Shown: piece after piece, positions 14,933 through 61,775 of the stretch | Layout of the letters: every line of letters begins with the position of its first letter | Numbering within the stretch: the stretch's first letter is position 1 | DNA from: a virus | Virus record (IMG/VR): IMGVR_UViG_3300022924_000016 | Span: 1-64,000 of that record | DNA length: 64,000 nt | Direction: 5' to 3' (one strand) | The notes under the pieces: model-generated | Databases searched by the model: none | Told to the model about the DNA's origin: nothing | What the model saw: the letters and a program-made list of their open reading frames with translations, nothing else | Made by a program: the position numbers and the translations under genes

Positions 14933-15259
14933 CTATTTTTTTGTAATTAATTTAATAGCTTTTTTAATTGCAGTTTCTATGTGGGAATCATTGCATCCGT
15001 CTGGATAGCTTTTAAAATCGTAATCGAAATTTAAAATATTTTCGCCTGGATTTTCTACTAACTCGCCATCAACTAAGGAAAATTTTCTTTTTAAAATTCC
15101 TTCAGAAATTACTAAACGATTATGTTTTTGTCCTTCTGAAAATTCATTATAAACCATACTATGTAAACGCAAAACGCCTACAGAATCAAGGTCAAAATAT
15201 TTATGAAAAATAGTTAATACTTTAACTAATACTTCAAATTGGTTAACTGGATATTTCAT
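14933..15259 (-). CDS. hypothetical protein, 108 aa
   Basis: MKYPVNQFEVLVKVLTIF begins a helix, then a strand and loop region (VLRLHSMVYNEFSEGQKHNRLVI) and a C-terminal basic helix. Mixed alpha-beta; unknown function. Confidence 0.75.
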   Translation of the reverse strand: MKYPVNQFEVLVKVLTIFHKYFDLDSVGVLRLHSMVYNEFSEGQKHNRLVISEGILKRKFSLVDGELVENPGENILNFDYDFKSYPDGCNDSHIETAIKKAIKLITKK

Positions 15260-15347
15260 AATAATAAGTTTTAAATTGTTTAGTGCCGTTTGCTAATTGA
15301 ATAGCCACAACTATATTGAACGGCTTTTTGTTTTTCTTTTCCCGCAT
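15243..15347 (-). CDS. possible small basic protein, 34 aa
   Basis: ATG at 15347 opens MREKKNKKPFNIVVAIQL and closes inside the start of the next gene (overlap 17 bases). The composition is protein-like with a basic N-terminus. It follows the terminator at 15378-15399 closely. Confidence 0.4.
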   Translation of the reverse strand: MREKKNKKPFNIVVAIQLANGTKQFKTYYYEISS

Positions 15348-15377
15348 TTCGCCAACAAAAAAGAATTAATAATATAT

Positions 15378-15399
15378 AAAAAATCCCTACTAAATAGGG
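15378..15399 (-). terminator. terminator of the noncoding unit, distal
   Basis: On the minus strand CCCTA/TAGGG (15385-15389 with 15395-15399) forms a 5-bp stem with a 5-base loop, followed by ATTTTTTAT. The stem is short but GC-rich for this genome and the T tract is clear. Confidence 0.55.
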
Positions 15400-15757
15400 C
15401 GTGATAATTTTCGATAAATTTAATAATAGTTTTTAATTAGAACCTTAACTAACTATGACTTTTCTCGCACCCTGCAATCGCTCGGCTAAATTAATAGTGA
15501 GTTTTATATGGTACTTTCATAGCTCCCAATTTCCGCAAAAAAGATAAAACAACCGTTTATATCATCTTAATCACTTATTGTTAAAACCCAGGCAAAGTCT
15601 TAGAGAGTTGGTTTAAAGCCTGTCAGTATTTCAAAGGACTGTAATATAATTCTTTTGTAAAGGTAAGCAACTTAAATCTAATAACCTAATTTATTTTGTT
15701 AAATTTTTCGGGCGAAAAAAGAAACTAAACAAAGGATAAAAAGAACTGCTTAACTAA
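15400..15757 (-). ncRNA. candidate noncoding transcript, 220-370 nt
   Basis: A canonical promoter at 15765-15794 fires leftward into sequence with no open frame longer than about 10 codons. Two hairpins followed by T tracts lie downstream (15537-15563 and 15378-15399), so the RNA would be about 220 or 370 nt. Several inverted repeats occur inside. I cannot match it to a known RNA family. Confidence 0.45.
15537..15563 (-). terminator. proximal terminator of the noncoding unit
   Basis: On the minus strand GATATAAAC and GTTTTATC pair over 8 bp with one bulged base and a GGTT loop (15543-15563), followed by TTTTTT (15537-15542). Confidence 0.55.
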
Positions 15758-15764
15758 TACATTA

Positions 15765-15794
15765 CAAAGATAAGGAAGTTAATTGAATAAACAA
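15765..15794 (-). promoter_or_regulatory. promoter TTG-N19-TATCTTTG
   Basis: Exact match to the Bacteroidetes consensus: -33 TTG at 15792-15794, spacer of 19 bases, -7 TATCTTTG at 15765-15772. It directs leftward transcription into the gene-free interval. Confidence 0.75.
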
Positions 15795-16061
15795 TAACTA
15801 AAAGTGTTAAAGTTTATAATTAATTTCAATACCTCAAAAAGAACTTTGTTGACTAACAACATTACAAAGGTCAGCATAAAATAATTAAAATAAAAATAGG
15901 ATATGAATTATTATTTTTGTATTACGTGCGGGCGCGATCATATTATTAGAAAAGCATTTGATTTGATTTGTTATTTATTAAATCCTGAGCAAAAAGAAAA
16001 CTAAAAACAGGAGCAACAACTGCTAATAACATAACTAAATAAGAGTAGTAAAACAGTAGCA

Positions 16062-16091
16062 CAAAAGTAACTAAGATAGTAACCAAGGCAA
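16062..16091 (-). promoter_or_regulatory. promoter TTG-N19-TACTTTTG
   Basis: -33 TTG at 16089-16091, spacer of 19 bases, -7 TACTTTTG at 16062-16069. It points into the same gene-free interval about 300 bases upstream of the 15765 promoter. Confidence 0.7.
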
Positions 16092-16142
16092 GCACTTTTT
16101 TCCAGGTTCAAACTTTTTGGCTTCTAAGGCTCGAAAATAGTT

Positions 16143-16230
16143 TTGAGATAGCAAGGTAGGGAGTACCAAACAAACAGCCCGTCTTGAACCAGTGGAACCC
16201 TAAGGTGGACAGGTGCAATACCACTCTCAA
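16143..16230. ncRNA. GC-richer structured block beside HNH gene
   Basis: A 6-bp closing stem TTGAGA/TCTCAA (16143-16148 with 16225-16230) encloses small hairpins: GGTA/TACC (16155-16167), ACC/GGT (16198-16207) and GGT/ACC (16212-16222). It starts 8 bases beyond the stop of the HNH gene. The strand is uncertain; a plus-strand reading is followed by TAAATTTTTT. Neither a tRNA nor group I intron core elements could be placed with confidence. Confidence 0.35.
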
Positions 16231-16238
16231 TAAATTTT

Positions 16239-17330
16239 TTATATTAGATACTTGTCTACATCTTCCTGCTCAAATATCCAAGTCTTATTTTTTATTATTG
16301 AGTCTATTATGCTTTCACTTACTTCACAAATTTCAGAGAGTTCTGCTATTGTGTGTTTACTTATATTATCCCTTATAAAAGTTGCTTTGTCAAAGTCAGC
16401 TTTTGTATGTCTATTCATTTTACAGTTCATACTTAAGGGAATCCATCTACAATTTTCTGGATTGTATCCTTGGTCGTTATCTCTTCTGTCAATGGATAGA
16501 TGTTCTTTATATCCGTTCTTTAGAGCCCACTTATAAAACTCTTGTGAGTCGTCTAACCACTCTTTATAAATATCTATACCTCTAGATCCGTAATTTTTAT
16601 AATCCTTGCAGTTTTGATTATAACATCTATTCTTCATGGCATGGAAAATTCTTTTGAGCCTTGAGTTTTTTATATTATTATTTTTCTTTTTACCCGCGGA
16701 TTTAGCACAACAGCTCGAATAGAATTCCGCATTTTCTATGGAATAAGTCTTTACTCCTCTACAAATCCTACATAATAAGTCTATAGAATTATTTTTATAA
16801 TCTATATGTTTTATTAGTTTCTTCGCCCCGTTTTTAAGGTAATGCCAATTTCTCTCTTTAATGGGCTTTCTACATCTTTCTTTAGTACAACTACAAGCCT
16901 CTTGCCTAACTGTCGTTATAGTTCTATTGTATGTTTTAGAACAGCTTACACACTCAATTTCAAAAATTCTATGAGATGCTTGTTCATAGTCCTCATTTAA
17001 AATTTTAAATCCATTAATTATACTTCCAATCTCTATTGGTTCTGGCTTCCTCACTTTGTATCCGTCAGGTTTGTAAACCCAAAGTAAATTATCCGCCTTT
17101 ACATTCATATTATTACCATCCTTATATCCCACATAACTGAAATTTTCAGGGTTAGGTATAAATAATCTAGCAACTGTAATTGCAACTAGGAGTTTAGTTT
17201 CTTTACCATCGAAACTAAGTTTAACTACCCTTTGTTTATTCATCTTAAGAATGTTTCCCGTCTTCTTGTTTTTTACCTCTCCATTTTCATTTACTTCAAA
17301 CTGTGGGTATTTTTCTATTGTCTTAAACAT
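16239..17330 (-). CDS. NUMOD4 / HNH-type homing endonuclease
   Basis: The 363-residue protein begins with a NUMOD4-like unit (KYPQFEVNENGEVKNKK, residues 7-23). The middle holds Cys pairs typical of zinc ribbons (CVSCSKTY, CSCTKERC, LCRICRGV). A C-terminal block carries MKNRCYN, YKNYGSRGI, LSIDRRDND and NPENCRW, the pattern of phage homing-type endonucleases with NCRW motifs. The last 45 residues look like a helix-turn-helix (IAELSEICEVSESIIDSII). It stands alone between ordinary genes, so it is a free-standing mobile endonuclease. Its cleavage site cannot be read from the sequence. Confidence 0.8.
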   Translation of the reverse strand: MFKTIEKYPQFEVNENGEVKNKKTGNILKMNKQRVVKLSFDGKETKLLVAITVARLFIPNPENFSYVGYKDGNNMNVKADNLLWVYKPDGYKVRKPEPIEIGSIINGFKILNEDYEQASHRIFEIECVSCSKTYNRTITTVRQEACSCTKERCRKPIKERNWHYLKNGAKKLIKHIDYKNNSIDLLCRICRGVKTYSIENAEFYSSCCAKSAGKKKNNNIKNSRLKRIFHAMKNRCYNQNCKDYKNYGSRGIDIYKEWLDDSQEFYKWALKNGYKEHLSIDRRDNDQGYNPENCRWIPLSMNCKMNRHTKADFDKATFIRDNISKHTIAELSEICEVSESIIDSIIKNKTWIFEQEDVDKYLI

Positions 17331-24515: not shown

Positions 24516-26054
24516 TTATTCTCTAGGAGAAATTATACTGATTACGTCTATGTTTAATAATAAAATCGCTGTTGCTTTCGCATTCTTTAAAGCTACTGAA
24601 ATACCTTTCTTAGAATCGATGATAGAGTCTTTCAAAAGATTTGAAGTTTCATCTGTTGAGCCGTTATAACCCCATCCATAAATTTCAAATGCTTTTTTAA
24701 GGTGTTCTTCGGGACTTCTTCTTGCATTTTGGCAAATCTGCTTTAGAGGTGATAGTAAAGCTCTCTTGAAAGCATCATAACCATATTGCATATCTGAATT
24801 TTCAAAGGTTTTGTTCATCAAATTAGAAATATGTGCCAAAGCTGAACCTCCTCCTGCTAGAGAACCCTCCAATAAGACTGATTTTACCGCTTTTATGGCG
24901 TCATCTACCCTGTCAAACACTTCTGATGCTCCAACTTCAATATCCCCCCCTACAACAACTGTAACGGATTTCCCTTCTAGAGTTTTTATGCGGTGATTTA
25001 AAAAGTCTGTGTCAATTTCAGCATCCTGACTCTGCAAGTTCCTAAGTTCTTGCAATTTCAAATCAACTTCTTGCTTTCTAGGATTCGTTATGTTGGTTGA
25101 ATTCAAGTTTACGGTTACTTTTTCTGCAAAACCTGCTTCCAAAGGTTCTTGCTGTCCTTGCCTATAGACTTTTCCGCCCGTATACAAAGCGATGTCTCTC
25201 ATTGTCTGCATCCTACTGTCATCATCTCTATACATGGGAGCTTCAATAAGCATTACGCTTGCTCCTGAAGCGACCACTTTAGCTAATTTCTCACTTGCGA
25301 AAGTGGGATCGCCCAAACGTTCAACAACTAATAAAACTGATTCTCCTTTGTTCTTCTTTGAATTGATATAGGATTTTACTTCTTCTGAATCATGCACTTC
25401 ATACCCTTCAAATACCAAGACGTTGCAATTATCAGCCTCAAATACCCCTTTGGCTTCGTTATTGATAAGGCTTGGCGTGAACCATCCTCTATCTAATTTC
25501 ATTCCCGTGGAAACTCTCAAAGAAACTGATTTTTCCTTTATGGATTGTATTGAATCTATGATTCCTTCTCCATTATTGGATTCTTCATAGGCTCTTGCAA
25601 TAATTTCTCCAATGTTTTTATCGTTATTGGCTGAAACTGTTGCAATGTCCCTTACTGTTTTCTTTGTAGTTTTCTTGGCGAATTTATTGAGGTACCTTTG
25701 AGCATCTTTATGTGCCTCTTCCATACCGAACTCCATTTTCTTGTTAAAGTTTTCTCCAATTTCTTCTACTAGGGATTGAGCTAGGACTAGAGTTGTTGTG
25801 GTATTATCCCCAATCTCTGTCAAAGTTTTAACGGCCGCCTGTTTAGCCAGAAGAACGCCCTGATATTTCACAGGGTCATTCTCTAGGATATGTCGGGCAA
25901 CAGAAACACCGTCTTTGGTAACTTTAGGTACTCCCATTTGGGTATTCTCTAAAACAGCGAGTTTTCCCTCTGCCCCTAAAGTTCTTTTTACGGCGTTGCA
26001 AACTATATTAAAACCTTCCAATAAATCTTTTTTATCTCCTACTAATGTTGCCAT
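24516..26054 (-). CDS. GroEL-like chaperonin, 512 aa
   Basis: Group I chaperonin signatures appear in order: TKDGVSVARHI (ATP site), GDNTTTTLVLAQ (the GDGTT nucleotide loop with its Asp), an apical-domain region GMKLDRGWFTPSLINN, a VGGDIEV turn, and RVDDAIKAVKSVLLEGSLAGGGSAL, in which the ATP-hydrolysis Asp and the GGG turn are kept. It is slightly shorter than bacterial GroEL (about 545) and lacks the C-terminal GGM tail. Key catalytic residues look intact, so it is probably an active folding machine. Phage GroELs are known in a few large phages. It starts 3 bases from the end of the preceding gene. A GroES-like gene occurs at 41427 on the other arm. Confidence 0.9.
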   Translation of the reverse strand: MATLVGDKKDLLEGFNIVCNAVKRTLGAEGKLAVLENTQMGVPKVTKDGVSVARHILENDPVKYQGVLLAKQAAVKTLTEIGDNTTTTLVLAQSLVEEIGENFNKKMEFGMEEAHKDAQRYLNKFAKKTTKKTVRDIATVSANNDKNIGEIIARAYEESNNGEGIIDSIQSIKEKSVSLRVSTGMKLDRGWFTPSLINNEAKGVFEADNCNVLVFEGYEVHDSEEVKSYINSKKNKGESVLLVVERLGDPTFASEKLAKVVASGASVMLIEAPMYRDDDSRMQTMRDIALYTGGKVYRQGQQEPLEAGFAEKVTVNLNSTNITNPRKQEVDLKLQELRNLQSQDAEIDTDFLNHRIKTLEGKSVTVVVGGDIEVGASEVFDRVDDAIKAVKSVLLEGSLAGGGSALAHISNLMNKTFENSDMQYGYDAFKRALLSPLKQICQNARRSPEEHLKKAFEIYGWGYNGSTDETSNLLKDSIIDSKKGISVALKNAKATAILLLNIDVISIISPRE

Positions 26055-29124: not shown

Positions 29125-29197
29125 TGGTTTTGGAGAATTACGATATCCCGACCCTTGAATTATGAGTTCAACGCTCTTACCTCTGAGCTACAAAACC
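29125..29197 (-). tRNA. tRNA-Met, anticodon CAT
   Basis: A 73-base cloverleaf: acceptor GGTTTTG/CAAAACC (7 bp), D-arm GCTC/GAGC with GG in the loop, anticodon stem TTGAA/TTCAA with loop CTCATAA, variable GGGTC, T-stem of 4-5 bp. CCA is not encoded; the 3' end is A. The T-loop reads ATCGTAA and lacks the usual TTC, so function is not certain. CAT could also be an Ile tRNA after lysidine modification. Confidence 0.8.
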
Positions 29198-41032: not shown

Positions 41033-41078
41033 ATCAGTAAATAGAATATTTATCGCTGTTAAACTTTAGTTAAAGTTC

Positions 41079-44194: not shown

Positions 44195-44614
44195 ATGACG
44201 GAACAATTAAAAAATAAATTTGAAGAAAAATACAAGTCTTGGAAAGCCTATACAAACTACATTGAATCAAACCAAGAACAGTTAAAAGAAAAACAGAAAG
44301 ACTTCTCTAAAAGAGTTGTAAACATCACCACAAAGGAACAGATGGAAGAACTCTTCAAACTTCAAGGAGAGCCAGGAAAACATCTTTCAGACCATACAAA
44401 TCTCTCAAATGACTTAGTTTTGCTTTATAGTTTGTTCACAGATAAGTCAGAATTCCCGCAAGAAGTAAAAGACGACATGGAAAAGCTAGGAACAAGAAAA
44501 TTATACTATATCGTAACAGACGGAAAGCTTGTCAAGATAAATGAAGAAATCCATGAAATCGCAAAAGAGCATTTCTACCAAACAATGCAAAACGTTTTGA
44601 CACTTGGAAAATAG
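44195..44614 (+). CDS. hypothetical helical protein before terminase, 139 aa
   Basis: MTEQLKNKFEEKYKSWKAY begins an almost fully helical, charged protein (QLKEKQKDFSKRVVNITTKE, DDMEKLGTRKLYYIVTDGK). It overlaps the terminase start by 11 bases, so a small terminase subunit is the natural guess, but no motif proves it. Confidence 0.7.
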   Translation: MTEQLKNKFEEKYKSWKAYTNYIESNQEQLKEKQKDFSKRVVNITTKEQMEELFKLQGEPGKHLSDHTNLSNDLVLLYSLFTDKSEFPQEVKDDMEKLGTRKLYYIVTDGKLVKINEEIHEIAKEHFYQTMQNVLTLGK

Positions 44615-47600
44615 TAGCAACGAGCAGATTGATGAGTTCATAAAAAGAAATAGTCCCCGATTCAAGAAGTGGAAACAGCATTTAGATGATTTCGATTGGA
44701 GCAAGGACGTTCACCTTTTATTTATAGAAGAAAAAGACATAGTTATGTTCGGAAAGACGGCGAACTATGAGCACGAATTTTATCAAAAAGATAATGAATT
44801 TAGAGTACAGGTCGGTTTAGTTAAGAAAATACTAGACCGACTTAAGTTTTTTATAGACAAGTCAAAAGGAGATTATAAAAATCCCAAGTTCAAGGCATTT
44901 TTCAAACTCGCCACAAACATAATAAGCATCCACCTAAAAAGATGTGACAAGTATTCCTTAGAAATTGACGAGACGGATATAAAAATCCACGATCTGAGAA
45001 GCAAGGAAGCAAAGTTCAATTCAGAAGTATTCGCAGAATATTCAAAAGTTGACAGCACTCTAAGTTCATACGGCTTCGTTGAAGAGGAAGATAAAGGCTC
45101 AGACTATATTGAGTTCTTTGATAACAAGAAAGCTTCTCTAGCAGTCTATAAAGAGGTTGTCAGAGATTTTCCCGCAGTAAAGGAGAAGATGAAAACAATG
45201 AAAATTGATTTTGACTCTTTAGCTCCCCAAAACTTACACATATTAAATGAAAACCCACCGATATGGAATCCAGAAAAACACTTCTGGGAGCAGGAAAAAG
45301 AAACAGTTCAATATTATGTGGATGAGTTAAAAAAGATAGAAGACGGAGTAGAGATTGACGGAGTTTACTTTGATGGATGGATATACTACCACATAAATCA
45401 TTTCAGAGTTAAGTATCCAACAACAGTAATGGTTAATGGGCATCCAAAATCTAAAGATGTTACAGGTAGACCCCCTTTAAGGGACAATGAGTGGATTATG
45501 TCTGAATATTTTATTAAGGCTAGTCGAGAACAGGGTTATGCACTTATCGCTGCCACAAGACGTGCCGCTAAGACAACTTTAAATGCGTCTCGTGTTGAGA
45601 GGGCTAAAGTTCTTGGTAGAATGGGTATATTATTAGCAGGCGGGTCTTCCTCAGATTTAGGTCAGATTATTGATAATTGTAAGGTCAATATGGATAATTG
45701 TGAACCAGCCTTTGCATTAGATTCTTTAGGGGAAACTAAAGAAGGTAAGGGAGAAGAATTTGGTATTAGAACGAAAGACAATAAACGTAAACGACATGCT
45801 GCTTTATATGTTAAAAATCTCGACGGAGGAACTAATAAGAAAAAAGGTGAATCCTTAGCAGGATTCACTATTGATGAATTTATTTTAGATGAGGCTTTCA
45901 AATTTCCTTTTATGAATCAACTACAAGGATTGGAACCAGCTTTGTTTGGAGAAGGTGTAATGAGAGCAACGCCATTACTAACAGCTTGTGTTTGTGCGGG
46001 AACTAAGGTTTGGAATAACGAAGGTAATTTAGTAAATATAGAAGATTTAAAACAAGATGATGGAATTGTAGGTTTTGATATAATTGAAGAAAAAATATCA
46101 AAAGAAAACATAACTTACTGGCAAAAACCTATTGAAAAAGAATGTTATAGATTGACAACAAATAAAGGAAGAATTCTTGAATGTAGTCATGATCATCCTA
46201 TATTAACTCGTACAAGAGATGCTTGGGATTTCAGAAAAGGTAGAGATAAACCTTTTAGAAAAATGTTTTTTGACAAGACTGAAAATTTAAAAGTAGGTCA
46301 AAATATAGGAACTGTTGAAAACATTCCAATCGAAGGTAATAATAGAATGTGGAATCCAAGACTGGTGGGACTTTTAATAGGAGATGGAAGTTATGGTAAA
46401 GATAAAACACCTATTTTATCCAACTGTGATGAAGAGGTAAATTCATATATCTCTAACAATTTTGATTGTATAGTAGAAAGGGAAAGGCTTACTTTAGATG
46501 GAAAACATTATAAAGAGACAAGAATAAAAGGAATAACTAAAGAATTAAGAAACTTAGGTATATATGGACAAACTAAAAATAATAAAAGATTGCCATTAAA
46601 CGTACATTCTTATAGAAACGAAGATATTTATGAATTGGTTGCAGGACTAATAGATTCCGATGGACACGTAAGCATATCAAAAAATAATGCTACTATTGGA
46701 GTAACTTTTTCAGGAATAGAATTAACAAGAGAATTACAGCTCTTGTTACAGAAAATAGGAATACATTCTAATATACAAAAAAAGATGCCGAGTAAAAGTA
46801 GCTATGGTACAAATCCATATTATACTCTACAAATATTAGACAGAGATAGTATATTAGTTTTTTGCGAAAAAATAAAATTATTAATTAAGTATAAGCAAAT
46901 TAATTTAGAGAGATTAATTGATATCTATAAACACAGGAAGAGTGGGGCAAAACAAAAAAATTTAAAGAATATAAGATTTGAAAATATAGTAAGTATAGAA
47001 AATATAGGTCTCAAACCTGTATATAATTTAACTGCTGAAAATACTAACACCTATATTGCAAATGGGATAATAACACATAATACAGGAGGCGATGACGAAT
47101 TAGCAGCAGACGGTATAAAAATGTTGAGCAATCCTGAAGCAAATAAGGTGATTTTAATGAATTGGGATGACTTGAATAGAGGTGTTCCTAGCGAGCACAA
47201 AACTTGGACTGAAAGACCTTTTGGACTATTTTTACCAGGTCAAATGTCGATTAGATTCGGCCAAAAGAATGCTATGACTATGAGTGACTATTTAGGCTTA
47301 AAAGCTGAAAATTGTCCTAGTCTCTCAAAACTTATAATAGGCGTTACTGATTGGAAAAAAACACTTGACAATATAAATATAGAGAGAGATAATAAAGTTA
47401 GCGATAAAAAAGCTTATGTTAAATTACTTGCTTATCATCCAATAGACCCCTCTGAAATATTTCTTTCGGGTAAAGTTAATCCCTTTCCTGTTGCAGAAGC
47501 AAAAGCTCACAGAAAATATTTATGGGAATCAGGATTGTGGGATAGACGTAGAGAACTCTACAAGGATTCAAATGGAAAGATACAAGTAGAACTTTCGCAG

Positions 47601-48404
47601 AGACCCTTGATTGAATACCCGTATAAAGGAGTGATGGATGCACCATTTATGATTTTTGAAAACCCTCCTGAAAACAAAGTACCGATAGGTACATACACTG
47701 CTGGATTTGATGATTATAAGCAAGAAGACTCAGACACTGATTCCGTTGCTACCTTTTATGTTTGGAAGAATGAAATATTAGGTGATCCATTCTCTAAAAA
47801 AATTGTAGCTTCTCTTTCCATAAGACCTCTAAAGCATAAAACAGTTTGGGAAAAATGGTTATTATTGATGGAAGCTTATCAGTTAGAGACAACTTGCTTC
47901 GGTGAGAATGAAGATTTTAAAATTAAAGACTTCTTAGACAATAGACAATTAACTGAAAAATATTTAGCCAATAGCTTAGACTTCACTTCAAGTTTCAATA
48001 GACCTAATAATGAAAAGCGTAAATTTGGGTGGACTCCTAGGGCAGTAAAGAGATTCATATTTGACTTTTTTGTTGAATACTGTAATGAAACTTTCGACAT
48101 AGAAGTTGAAGATAAACAGACAGGTGAGATTAAAATAGTCGAATTAAAAGGAGTACAAAGAATAGACGATATCTACCTTTTAGATGAAATCATTTCTTAT
48201 CAGGAAAATGCCAACGTCGATAGGATTATCGGGGCAATGGGTGGTTATGCTTATTTAGAATATTTGATAAAAGCTTTGCATTGGGTGCCCTCAAAATCCT
48301 TCGATAGGTTTAAGGGAAGAAAAGAAGAAGCCAGAAAAGAAATACAAAGAACAAAGTCTTTCTACCAAAAAAATCTAAAACCGACTTACCGATCAAGACG
48401 TTAA
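44604..48404 (+). CDS. terL: terminase large subunit with intein, 1266 aa
   Basis: Starts with TTG at 44604, overlapping the upstream gene. Extein: Walker A-like ATRRAAKTT (about 318-326), Walker B FILDEA (about 426-431), the coupling motif ...TPLLTA directly before the intein and TGGDDE after it, and a nuclease part with GFDDYKQEDSDTD (about 1035), FGENEDFK (about 1095) and DDIYLLDE (about 1188). Without the 365-residue intein the mature protein is 901 residues, large for a terminase, with a long N-terminal extension of about 300. It packages phage DNA into capsids. Confidence 0.9.
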   Translation: MENSSNEQIDEFIKRNSPRFKKWKQHLDDFDWSKDVHLLFIEEKDIVMFGKTANYEHEFYQKDNEFRVQVGLVKKILDRLKFFIDKSKGDYKNPKFKAFFKLATNIISIHLKRCDKYSLEIDETDIKIHDLRSKEAKFNSEVFAEYSKVDSTLSSYGFVEEEDKGSDYIEFFDNKKASLAVYKEVVRDFPAVKEKMKTMKIDFDSLAPQNLHILNENPPIWNPEKHFWEQEKETVQYYVDELKKIEDGVEIDGVYFDGWIYYHINHFRVKYPTTVMVNGHPKSKDVTGRPPLRDNEWIMSEYFIKASREQGYALIAATRRAAKTTLNASRVERAKVLGRMGILLAGGSSSDLGQIIDNCKVNMDNCEPAFALDSLGETKEGKGEEFGIRTKDNKRKRHAALYVKNLDGGTNKKKGESLAGFTIDEFILDEAFKFPFMNQLQGLEPALFGEGVMRATPLLTACVCAGTKVWNNEGNLVNIEDLKQDDGIVGFDIIEEKISKENITYWQKPIEKECYRLTTNKGRILECSHDHPILTRTRDAWDFRKGRDKPFRKMFFDKTENLKVGQNIGTVENIPIEGNNRMWNPRLVGLLIGDGSYGKDKTPILSNCDEEVNSYISNNFDCIVERERLTLDGKHYKETRIKGITKELRNLGIYGQTKNNKRLPLNVHSYRNEDIYELVAGLIDSDGHVSISKNNATIGVTFSGIELTRELQLLLQKIGIHSNIQKKMPSKSSYGTNPYYTLQILDRDSILVFCEKIKLLIKYKQINLERLIDIYKHRKSGAKQKNLKNIRFENIVSIENIGLKPVYNLTAENTNTYIANGIITHNTGGDDELAADGIKMLSNPEANKVILMNWDDLNRGVPSEHKTWTERPFGLFLPGQMSIRFGQKNAMTMSDYLGLKAENCPSLSKLIIGVTDWKKTLDNINIERDNKVSDKKAYVKLLAYHPIDPSEIFLSGKVNPFPVAEAKAHRKYLWESGLWDRRRELYKDSNGKIQVELSQRPLIEYPYKGVMDAPFMIFENPPENKVPIGTYTAGFDDYKQEDSDTDSVATFYVWKNEILGDPFSKKIVASLSIRPLKHKTVWEKWLLLMEAYQLETTCFGENEDFKIKDFLDNRQLTEKYLANSLDFTSSFNRPNNEKRKFGWTPRAVKRFIFDFFVEYCNETFDIEVEDKQTGEIKIVELKGVQRIDDIYLLDEIISYQENANVDRIIGAMGGYAYLEYLIKALHWVPSKSFDRFKGRKEEARKEIQRTKSFYQKNLKPTYRSRR
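45987..47081 (+). mobile_element. LAGLIDADG intein inside terminase
   Basis: The intein spans residues 462-826. It starts with the catalytic Cys in CVCAGTKV, has block B as LECSHDHPILTR, LAGLIDADG helices at LVGLLIGDG (about 590) and LVAGLIDSDG (about 695), and ends VYNLTAENTNTYIANGIITHN with HN followed by Thr as the +1 residue. All elements for splicing and homing are present, so it is likely active. Insertion is in the ATPase coupling motif, a favoured site because it is conserved. Confidence 0.95.
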
Positions 48405-59072: not shown

Positions 59073-61775
59073 ATGGAATGTGAAAAAGAAAAGTGCAAAG
59101 AAAACAGCATAAATTGGGTAAAGAATTTGCCTTCAAAACCATGTCCTAATTCCATATACTTTCTAAAGACTTCTGATGGAGTTTTGATGTATGTATCTTC
59201 TCTTACAGGAGTACTTACTCAAATAGGCGGTTCTAGTCAAGGAGGTGATATAACAATAACTTCACCTGATTCAAGCATCACAGTAACTGAGAACGGGCAA
59301 GATTTTCAAATTAAAGTTTCAGATATTCTTCAAAGTCTCATACAATCTGCATTACAACCAGGAAATAATGTATCAGAACTTGTAAATGACGCAGGGTACT
59401 TAACGGAATTAGGAGAACAGTTTCAAACAGTAGCTACAGATTCTTATGTAGGAGATAGGTTAGTTCCAGTAGATGCAAATATAAACGGCCTCCTGATAAA
59501 TAAAAACTCAAATACAAGAAACGGATTTGAAGCAGTAAACATAAATGCAGGAAATGGAGCAACTTCTTCAATAGTGGCTAGAGGTTCCGCAAATCTATAT
59601 GAAAAAAGCATTTCAATGCAATGGTTTGGATCAGGTTATTTTGTACCCTACTTAAGAGATAAGGGAGCTATAACTTCAACTAATGATATTGTAATTGCAC
59701 CAACAAATAATACAGGAGTAGATTTCAAGACAGGAAGTACAATTTCGACACTTACAACTAAGATGAAGTTGGACGGGGATGGAACTCTGAATATAATCAC
59801 ACAGCCCATAACAGATAACACAGTCACAAAAGGACTCGCAAGAAAATCAGATGGAAAGGTTGTTGAATTTGACATACAAGGAGAAACATTGCAAGACTTA
59901 CAATCTGTAACAGATGAAGGTCAAATTACTACAAATAGTATGGCTATTATTGGAGAATCTAAATCCTTTAATGTTAACAGTGATTCCTCTGGAGATAATT
60001 CTGCTGGAATGTATCTAGAGGGCACTACTCCTAAATTTCAAATTAGAAAAGGATTAGTTGACTATAATATATACGCTCAAAATATAAATTCTATTGTCAA
60101 CAGACAAGCTTCTAATCAATCAGGTTATGAAGTAGTTTCAGTGAATGGAAATCTAGCGGACTCTAATGGTAACGTATTAGTATCGGCAGGTGGTAATTTC
60201 ATCCCTCTTACAGGAACAACAGAAGGTAATCCTGTTACTGGGGATATTGAAATGTATAATCCTGCAAACGACGATTCTTATAAAATTAGTGCTTCAGATG
60301 ATTTTTCAGTATATAGAACTTCAGACGGAAAAGGATTCGGAATGAATTCTACAGGTATTAATTTTAATTTTGACGAAGACTCTAAAGGAATTCAAGGTTC
60401 TTTTTTATACGACAAGCAAGATGACCCAAATGCTTTTGCACAGATGGGAGATTTAAATATAAAAGTTTCAAAAGGATTAATCTCAGGAGATTCTACGATT
60501 GCAGCTTACCTAGGACAAAACGCAGTAGCCAGTTACATACTAACTTTTGCAGATATTTCCGCAGGAACAACTCTAACAGATATAGCAGTTCCAGGTCATA
60601 CAATTACACAACAAAAAGCTAATTGGTTAGCTCTCACTGACCAAAATACTTACGATTGGATTATTGTTGAGATTGGATTAAACGATACGGATGACGGAGA
60701 AACTGTTTCAGGAGCAATTTCTAAATATCAAGATTATATAGACACCATTAATCTTACTAGAAAAGCAAGTTCTAAATTAATAATTGGAACAATGACTCCT
60801 TGTAGAGCAGTTGCAGGTATTGATTATTCTGTATGGCTAGGACTTAATGAAGCCATTATGGGCGGTGGAGCTACACCTATTACAGGAGTAGATATTAGAG
60901 TAAACAATCACACTCTTTTGCTTTCAGACGTAAATGATAATTTATTACCAGCTTACGATATGGGAGACCATATCCACGAAAATAATTTAGCTAGAAATGT
61001 AATAGGCTGGTCTTACAGAAGAGTATTGAGAGATATAAATTATATTCCTCAATCAAGTATTAATACTACAGAAAAACTTACAAGTACTGCTGGAGGATAT
61101 GTTGATCTTATCAATAATCAAACTATTGCTGGAGAAAAGTCTTTTACAGATACTTTACTTTATAAAGTTGGTAGTCAATCTGTAGGATTTGGAAAAGATG
61201 GCACAGACCCTGTTTTACTATTTAACGGTGCATATAGAATGCTACACAGTGCAGGTTATGGAACAATATTTAATGTTTCACCAGGAGAAAATTATGCATG
61301 GAGAATAGGTAATAATTTAAATATTGAAATGCATTTACATCCTGATGGTAATTTAGCTAATGGTTTTGCTTATAATGTAAATACAGGAGAAAAGCTTCAG
61401 ATTAATGGAGATGGTAAATTTGTAGGTAAAGTTTCTGGATTAGATGCAGTATTACCTGAACATTTTGTACCACTTGGTCAATTGTCTAGTAATACGTTAT
61501 CATCGGCTAGCTCATTAGCATTATTACCTACAAGCAAAGTAATGTACTACAGCTATACAGGAGCAACAGCCACAACTTGGACATTACCGACAATAGCAAG
61601 TAATTCTAGAACAAGGTTTGTATTAATAAATACAGGGACAGGCACTATAACACTGAACAGTAGTTCTGGAGGAAACGATATATGGGATTCAGGAACTGTC
61701 ACAAACACTTACCCTATATCTCCAGGCTCTAGTATGGAGCTATTCAATAATGGAAATTCTTATATAATACTTTAA
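59073..61775 (+). CDS. tail fibre with SGNH esterase domain, 900 aa
   Basis: I chose the ATG at 59073 (MECEKEKCKENSINW), right after the upstream stop; an ATG at 59046 overlaps that gene. A Cys-rich N-terminus is followed by long repetitive beta regions rich in Thr, Asn and Gly, as in fibres. Residues about 470-640 hold the SGNH hydrolase blocks: GDSTIAAYLG (Ser), IGLNDT (Asn/Asp) and DMGDHIHENN (Asp-x-x-His). This would act as a carbohydrate esterase on host surface glycans. The C-terminus has Gly-rich coils typical of trimerising tips. Confidence 0.8.
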   Translation: MECEKEKCKENSINWVKNLPSKPCPNSIYFLKTSDGVLMYVSSLTGVLTQIGGSSQGGDITITSPDSSITVTENGQDFQIKVSDILQSLIQSALQPGNNVSELVNDAGYLTELGEQFQTVATDSYVGDRLVPVDANINGLLINKNSNTRNGFEAVNINAGNGATSSIVARGSANLYEKSISMQWFGSGYFVPYLRDKGAITSTNDIVIAPTNNTGVDFKTGSTISTLTTKMKLDGDGTLNIITQPITDNTVTKGLARKSDGKVVEFDIQGETLQDLQSVTDEGQITTNSMAIIGESKSFNVNSDSSGDNSAGMYLEGTTPKFQIRKGLVDYNIYAQNINSIVNRQASNQSGYEVVSVNGNLADSNGNVLVSAGGNFIPLTGTTEGNPVTGDIEMYNPANDDSYKISASDDFSVYRTSDGKGFGMNSTGINFNFDEDSKGIQGSFLYDKQDDPNAFAQMGDLNIKVSKGLISGDSTIAAYLGQNAVASYILTFADISAGTTLTDIAVPGHTITQQKANWLALTDQNTYDWIIVEIGLNDTDDGETVSGAISKYQDYIDTINLTRKASSKLIIGTMTPCRAVAGIDYSVWLGLNEAIMGGGATPITGVDIRVNNHTLLLSDVNDNLLPAYDMGDHIHENNLARNVIGWSYRRVLRDINYIPQSSINTTEKLTSTAGGYVDLINNQTIAGEKSFTDTLLYKVGSQSVGFGKDGTDPVLLFNGAYRMLHSAGYGTIFNVSPGENYAWRIGNNLNIEMHLHPDGNLANGFAYNVNTGEKLQINGDGKFVGKVSGLDAVLPEHFVPLGQLSSNTLSSASSLALLPTSKVMYYSYTGATATTWTLPTIASNSRTRFVLINTGTGTITLNSSSGGNDIWDSGTVTNTYPISPGSSMELFNNGNSYIIL

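Follow-up and report, generated by a model that had tools for sequence, protein, structure and literature searches.

GENOMIC SETTING AND GENOMES COMPARED

A promoter and a terminator that enclose no reading frame may specify a noncoding RNA or may serve the genes that follow them. This question is raised by an interval of phage DNA (15378 to 15794, minus strand) within a window of 64,000 nt, the whole stretch that was analysed, and the interval had been predicted from its letters to encode a noncoding RNA. The window was taken from a virus record of 141,323 bases (G000; ∼33% G+C), that of an uncultured phage distantly related to crAss-like and Cellulophaga phages. Large terminases related to its own occur in crAss-like phages and in Cellulophaga phages phi17:2 and phi4:1, and a member of the Bacteroidota is therefore the most likely host. 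The terminase gene (44604 to 48404; 1,266 aa) contains an intein bearing a LAGLIDADG domain, and a GroEL-like chaperonin of 512 aa is encoded at 24516 to 26054.

Genes point left as far as 40,979 and right from 41,222 on. The site is a 979-nt gap (15260 to 16238) inside the leftward module, bordered on one side by an HNH endonuclease gene (16239 to 17330) and on the other by a 108-aa ORF (14933 to 15259); it is among the two largest gaps of the genome and is also present in the relatives (889 and 898 nt). The close relatives compared were two IMG/VR genomes, G002 (144 kb) and G003 (147 kb), whose shared genes have a median nucleotide identity to G000 of 84% and 93%, respectively, and the comparison rests on these three related genomes. 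Third codon positions of equal-length orthologues of G000 and G002, which are 71% identical, served as the neutral yardstick, and P values assume independent sites and a single neutral rate genome-wide. Outside the tool list, genes were called not by a gene finder but by a simple script that kept the longest frames without overlap. The adjoining genes differ among the three genomes, the HNH gene being present in G000 only, with other genes in G002 and G003, and the 108-aa gene is likewise restricted to G000. When the region or its conserved blocks were searched as DNA against phages, plasmids, viral contigs and genome contigs, the noncoding stretch matched only G002 and G003, in viral contigs. 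The matches to phages were located in the HNH gene.

The features of the gap, from its upstream end, are as follows.

16131 to 16230, minus strand: 15-bp stem (arms 16131 to 16145 and 16216 to 16230) around a variable loop of ∼70 nt, far end of the gap
16062 to 16091, minus strand: P3, motif match TTG-N19-TACTTTTG, exact in G000 and G003
15859 to 15874, minus strand: P2, diverged upstream copy of the −7/start region of P1 (direct repeat D3, 100 bp from P1)
15640 to 15835, minus strand: conserved island I, which holds P1, the start region, the leader motif and P0
15765 to 15794, minus strand: P1, promoter TTG-N19-TATCTTTG, exact motif, predicted RNA start at ∼15760
15699 to 15728, minus strand: leader motif around CTTTTTTCGCCCGAAAAATTTAACAAAATAAAT; the relatives read CTTTCCCGCCGATTAAAAGGCTTGAAAAA here
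15658 to 15690, minus strand: P0, promoter-like ATTAGG-N20-TACCTTTA, inside the P1 transcript, predicted RNA start at ∼15653
15379 to 15760, minus strand: predicted terminated RNA, ∼382 nt from P1 to the terminator or ∼275 nt from P0
15400 to 15639, minus strand: unconserved RNA body with large indels
15537 to 15563, minus strand: AT-only hairpin and T run, G000 only
15379 to 15399, minus strand: intrinsic terminator CCCTATTTAGTAGGG-ATTTTTT (hairpin 15399 to 15385), called in all three genomes
15243 to 15347, minus strand: short ORF of 34 aa, MREKKNKKPFNIVVAIQLANGTKQFKTYYYEISS, directly after the terminator and outside the predicted interval

PROMOTERS

Promoters of this phylum have a −33 element, TTTG, and a −7 element, TANNTTTG or TAHHTTTG (PMC2483708, PMC6847099). 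The exact TTG-N19 promoter that had been claimed was present at 15794 to 15765 on the minus strand. Like Bacteroidota primary-sigma promoters, P1 has an exact −7 element and the TTG of the −33 element; it is intergenic, is oriented towards a predicted transcript and has these elements within the 18- to 20-nt spacing required for TTG/TTTG and TANNTTTG, although its 19-nt spacer is unlike the 20-nt spacer of most promoters of this phage. The RNA start was placed by the spacing in F. johnsoniae, with the −7 element at −12 to −5 (PMC6847099). A relaxed motif, TTG-N18-20-TANNTTTG, was detected in 15 to 16 intergenic copies in the 141-kb record versus 1.3 ± 1.2 expected from a first-order Markov model (intergenic DNA is 8% of the genome), and nearly all of these copies were oriented towards the next gene. 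With a weight matrix trained on 43 promoter sites, from which the P1 locus was left out, P1 scored 17.3, and matches scoring above 16 were nearly all intergenic and in the sense orientation. The site is identical at 28 of 30 positions in G002 and at 30 of 30 in G003. Overall, motif, frequency above chance and conservation argue that P1 is a real, conserved and selected promoter. Its distance to the next gene is 406 to 506 nt; for the other exact-motif promoters this distance does not exceed 252 nt, with the exception of P3 and of a promoter that precedes a tRNA.

Unlike the Bacteroidota primary-sigma consensus, P0 has ATTAGG and TACCTTTA and is without the final G of the consensus. Its weight-matrix scores were 13.9, 13.9 and 15.4 in the three genomes, and a block (15698 to 15640) that begins with its −33 element and ends a few bases past its predicted start was identical to G002 at 58 of 59 positions. 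The ATTAGG/GTTAGG-N20 form was also found 29 to 32 nt before the gene at G000 12555, G002 44690 and G003 51564. P0 is likely but not certain to be a second promoter, because its score falls where matches inside genes begin to appear.

P2 has the elements TTTGTAATG..TTAGT..AA..AGTTCTTTTT in common with P1, and its −7 box is degenerate, with a deletion in G003. P3 was considered doubtful as a strong promoter, having a low score outside the top weight-matrix matches and being lost in G002. A rightward promoter match at 16117 to 16145 was judged to be due to chance: about one wrong-way match per genome is expected, and this one has a G that the −7 consensus excludes (PMC6847099). The conservation at that position is better explained by the stem at 16131 to 16230.

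Two further observations concern promoters of this phage. A promoter is followed at once by a terminator-like hairpin at G000 83109 to 83164 (in L033), G002 120326 to 120300 and G003 132770 to 132744; this second unit, TAAATTTG then TGCC..GGCATTTTT, is kept in all three genomes and lies 40 to 252 nt upstream of the next gene. A tRNA with the anticodon loop CTCATAA (anticodon CAT) was detected at 29125 to 29197 of the window (minus strand) by Rfam (53.9 bits) and was missed by ARAGORN, perhaps due to its odd T arm. A very strong promoter (29366) lies ∼170 nt ahead of it, and the orthologous promoter in G002 and G003 precedes tRNA-His.

TERMINATORS

Two terminator hairpins had been proposed for the unit, and one of them survived comparison. 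The element at 15399 to 15379 has a U run immediately after its GC-containing hairpin and was identical at all 21 positions in the three genomes; together with the following 31 nt, it was 96% identical (50/52) to G002. This conservation indicates that the terminator is real. The hairpin energy is −6.8 kcal/mol in G000 and −8.2 kcal/mol in the relatives, which makes it the weakest of four compared, the three other phage terminators ranging from −9.4 to −26.3 kcal/mol. The hairpin at 15563 to 15537, in contrast, was not called by the terminator scan and was absent from G002 and G003. An RNA of 220 nt had been predicted to end at this hairpin, and that prediction was not upheld.

CONSERVATION ALONG THE UNIT

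The region from 15835 to 15640 was 94% identical to G002 (178/189), compared to 71% for third codon positions (P = 8 × 10−16). The body (15639 to 15400) was 53% identical to G002, below the level of third codon positions, and 55% identical to G003, and the DNA upstream of the unit (16061 to 15900) was 60% identical to G002. Selection is thereby seen, on this yardstick, at the ends of the unit, namely, the promoter and the terminator, and not in the body. The first 120 nt of the predicted RNA are conserved, which can for the most part be explained by their being promoter DNA (P1 and P0). The bodies of G002 and G003 have in common a nearly identical stretch of 65 nt (one-base indel), which has a chance probability of ∼2 × 10−10 at a neutral identity of 71% and has been replaced or lost in G000; part of the body may therefore be constrained or exchanged in the relatives.

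An unconserved region between conserved flanking genes would have counted against the unit. The pattern was rather the reverse, with promoter and terminator kept while the neighbours were exchanged, and this persistence supports a real, selected promoter-to-terminator unit. An empty unit of this type can resemble an RNA gene while its ends, and not its body, are selected.

CODING CAPACITY, FOLDING AND RNA FAMILIES

The claimed absence of an open frame was borne out. From start to terminator, the longest frame that the transcribed strand offers has 15 aa, and no longer ATG-started frame was present in the corresponding stretch of the relatives (read from their sequences). By itself, the lack of a frame over 374 nt is weak evidence, because 58% of random sequences of the same composition also lack a frame of 30 aa.

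The P1 transcript folded no better than shuffled sequences did (z scores of +0.84 in G000 and of −1.44 and +0.30 in the relatives), and neither did the conserved 5′ domain alone (z scores of 0.08 to 0.45). A covariance search in related phages had been proposed as a check; in a comparison of three sequences, which has little power, the covariation term of the consensus fold was unfavourable and a single pair was changed on both sides. No Rfam family was detected at the locus at either gathering or permissive thresholds, the best below-threshold match having an E value of 3.3. Selection on the RNA body or its structure, by which a trans-acting sRNA would be recognized, was not detected, with bodies 53 to 55% identical. 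The unit is like the phage-encoded small RNAs that have been reviewed (PMC12197685) in having its own predicted promoter and terminator and no frame, and it is unlike them in that the body is not conserved and gives no structure signal.

DOWNSTREAM GENES

The interval originally marked ends at 15378, and the short ORF and then the next operon follow directly, the downstream genes beginning 38 nt past the terminator. The spacing from terminator to small ORF is held within a few bases in G002, in which the ORF (15347 to 15243 in G000) has length differences of 3 and 9 nt in its first part and keeps its frame. The G003 counterpart is weaker (23 aa, read from the alignment). No relative of this ORF was found in phages and none in Pfam. 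Between the terminator and 12555, there was no sense promoter-like site with a score of at least 9. At 2.9 kb, in the same module, the order of the elements is reversed, a terminator (2963) being followed by a promoter (2889) and then a gene, and the promoter-before-terminator order at 15794 to 15379 is therefore not just an operon boundary.

Distant phages with a 90-aa downstream gene (L017 to L032) often have large noncoding gaps near the operon head, and these gaps exhibited no sequence similarity to the 979-nt gap. Long noncoding stretches at an operon head were also observed at L003:4128-5254 and L026:5243-5628, in phages that share the 108-aa or the 90-aa gene; the L003 stretch folds better than chance (z score of −2.4) and has a tRNA-like arm inside. 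Matches to the Rfam family DUF805b RNA were detected at G002 59665 to 59699 (L039:19665-19699) and L027:7953-7985.

LEADER MOTIF AND GENE EXCHANGE

A motif similar to the leader motif (CTTTTTTCGCCCGA-like) was found 24 to 38 nt before start codons at G000 125301 (+) and 138532 (−), with orthologous sites in G002 (66499 and 78082) and G003 (75653 and 87446). The gene that follows each of these sites was different in each genome, and the motif may mark points at which cargo is swapped. At the exchange sites it takes the form CTTTTTYCGCC(C)GA..ATAAAT..ATG. Dispersed weak copies of 15690 to 15750 were rejected as a separate element, being partly a common C-terminal coding end (QKEN-stop) and partly the leader motif.

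INTERPRETATION OF THE UNIT

The unit resembles a regulated untranslated leader more than it does a functional RNA in its own right. In the explanation that we favour, and to which we give an even chance, tandem promoters would produce an untranslated leader, most copies of which would end at a weak terminator, and read-through would supply the early operon that follows. P1, probably P0 and the decayed copy P2 would form a cluster of tandem promoters at the head of the leftward early operon; RNA polymerase of the host, carrying the primary sigma factor of the Bacteroidota, would start at ∼15760 (and 15653), giving a leader of ∼382 nt or ∼275 nt. The short and rather weak terminator at 15399 to 15379 would halt most transcripts before the small ORF at 15347, and a fraction would read through, or would pass under some condition, into the genes from 15347 down to ∼12.6 kb. 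The terminated leader would accumulate as an RNA of 275 to 382 nt, the body of which would matter little. We infer transcription, termination, read-through and any regulation from the motifs observed, their conservation, the lack of frames and the lack of a downstream promoter-like site.

The terminator is located between the promoter and the first gene, as in an attenuator leader, with no further promoter detected; standing 38 nt before genes that have no promoter-like site, it makes a terminated leader at least as good an explanation as a stand-alone RNA. Furthermore, an unconstrained body (53%) is more in keeping with a spacer-like leader than with the body of a functional RNA. The unit is like the attenuated leaders of bacterial and phage operons in the order and spacing of its parts, in the weak terminator directly before the first ORF and in the genes behind it that are without a promoter-like site of their own. 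It is unlike them in that no conserved antiterminator pairing, leader peptide or known ligand domain was found and the body is unconserved. A possible antiterminator pairing with the 5′ arm of the terminator (−8.7 kcal/mol in G002 and G003 and −6.3 kcal/mol in G000) could be due to chance and was not seen in predicted folds made without the 3′ arm. Three points count against the leader explanation: no conserved alternative pairing of the type that a regulated attenuator would need was found across the three genomes, transcripts of the upstream operon could feed the downstream genes, and the 65-nt stretch of G002 and G003 suggests some constraint in the body. If the unit is a terminated leader, it would show how the phage may control how strongly an early operon is expressed, with exact promoter and terminator coordinates.

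A stand-alone functional noncoding RNA of ∼380 nt, acting in trans on host or phage targets through its conserved first 120 nt, is weakened, and we rank it second to the leader, as rather unlikely. The predicted promoter and terminator of its own, the lack of a frame in all three genomes, the long distance from promoter to gene and the conserved start are what such an RNA would have, and a selected promoter-to-terminator unit is the part of the original prediction that holds. The RNA part fares worse, as the body is unconserved, folding is not in excess in any of the three genomes, covariation and Rfam matches are lacking and the conserved start is explained by the DNA of P1 and P0. Were it nevertheless correct, this phage group would have a noncoding RNA, and the literature searched described none for the group. 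Another explanation is an emptied or cargo-swapping site, at which promoter, leader motif and terminator persist, the coding part has been lost or exchanged and the body is neutral. The similar leader motif before start codons elsewhere, followed by a different gene in each of the three genomes, is in keeping with such a site, as are the differing genes on both sides of the 979-nt gap and a G000 body that is unlike the one partly common to G002 and G003. However, no gene is present here in any of the three genomes, and strong selection on promoter and terminator is not expected of a dead unit; we rank this explanation third and think it improbable. A further possibility is a family of transcription units with fixed ends, in which promoter, leader motif and terminator are selected and phages exchange the untranslated body, much as genes are exchanged behind the similar leader motif elsewhere in these genomes; the body could then serve as a regulatory or decoy RNA that is open to change. 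We regard this possibility as decidedly improbable.

Two explanations of other types appear still less probable. The site is AT-rich, noncoding and promoter bearing, with both ends conserved, as might be seen for an element that acts as DNA, for example a replication origin with an RNA made from the promoter, but the cumulative GC skew has its minimum at 41034 and its maximum at 132958, near the switches in gene direction and not at the site, and we consider an origin very unlikely. Early lambdoid operons have the order promoter, 5′ leader, terminator and early genes, and HK022 put has a pair of neighbouring conserved hairpins where the early transcript begins. The order found here (promoter, conserved 5′ leader, unconserved spacer, terminator and early genes) resembles those operons, and, as with HK022 put RNAs and lambda nut leaders, a terminator lies between the promoter and the genes of an early operon. 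Processive antitermination of the put type, in which the 5′ leader RNA would modify RNA polymerase to pass the terminator, is nonetheless the explanation to which we give the least credence: no stable or conserved hairpin pair was present in 15758 to 15628, no box elements were seen in the leader, and the conserved part coincides with promoter DNA.

OTHER FEATURES OF THE GAP

A 33-codon frame on the plus strand at 15903 to 16004 of the window is similar in G003 and apparently broken in G002. Its QKEN-stop ending is shared with a small gene family of these phages, and the frame is possibly a gene remnant in the gap.

The arms of the 15-bp stem, TTGAGAGTGGTTTTG and CAAAACTATTTTCGA, are paired in the minus-strand RNA of G002 and G003, with several G-U pairs; in G000 there is one mismatch, and the predicted fold is without the stem. 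Counterparts were observed at L039:870-999 and L047:8584-8710, with a loop that is different in each genome. The stem sits at the 3′ end of the upstream gene, which is itself different in each genome.
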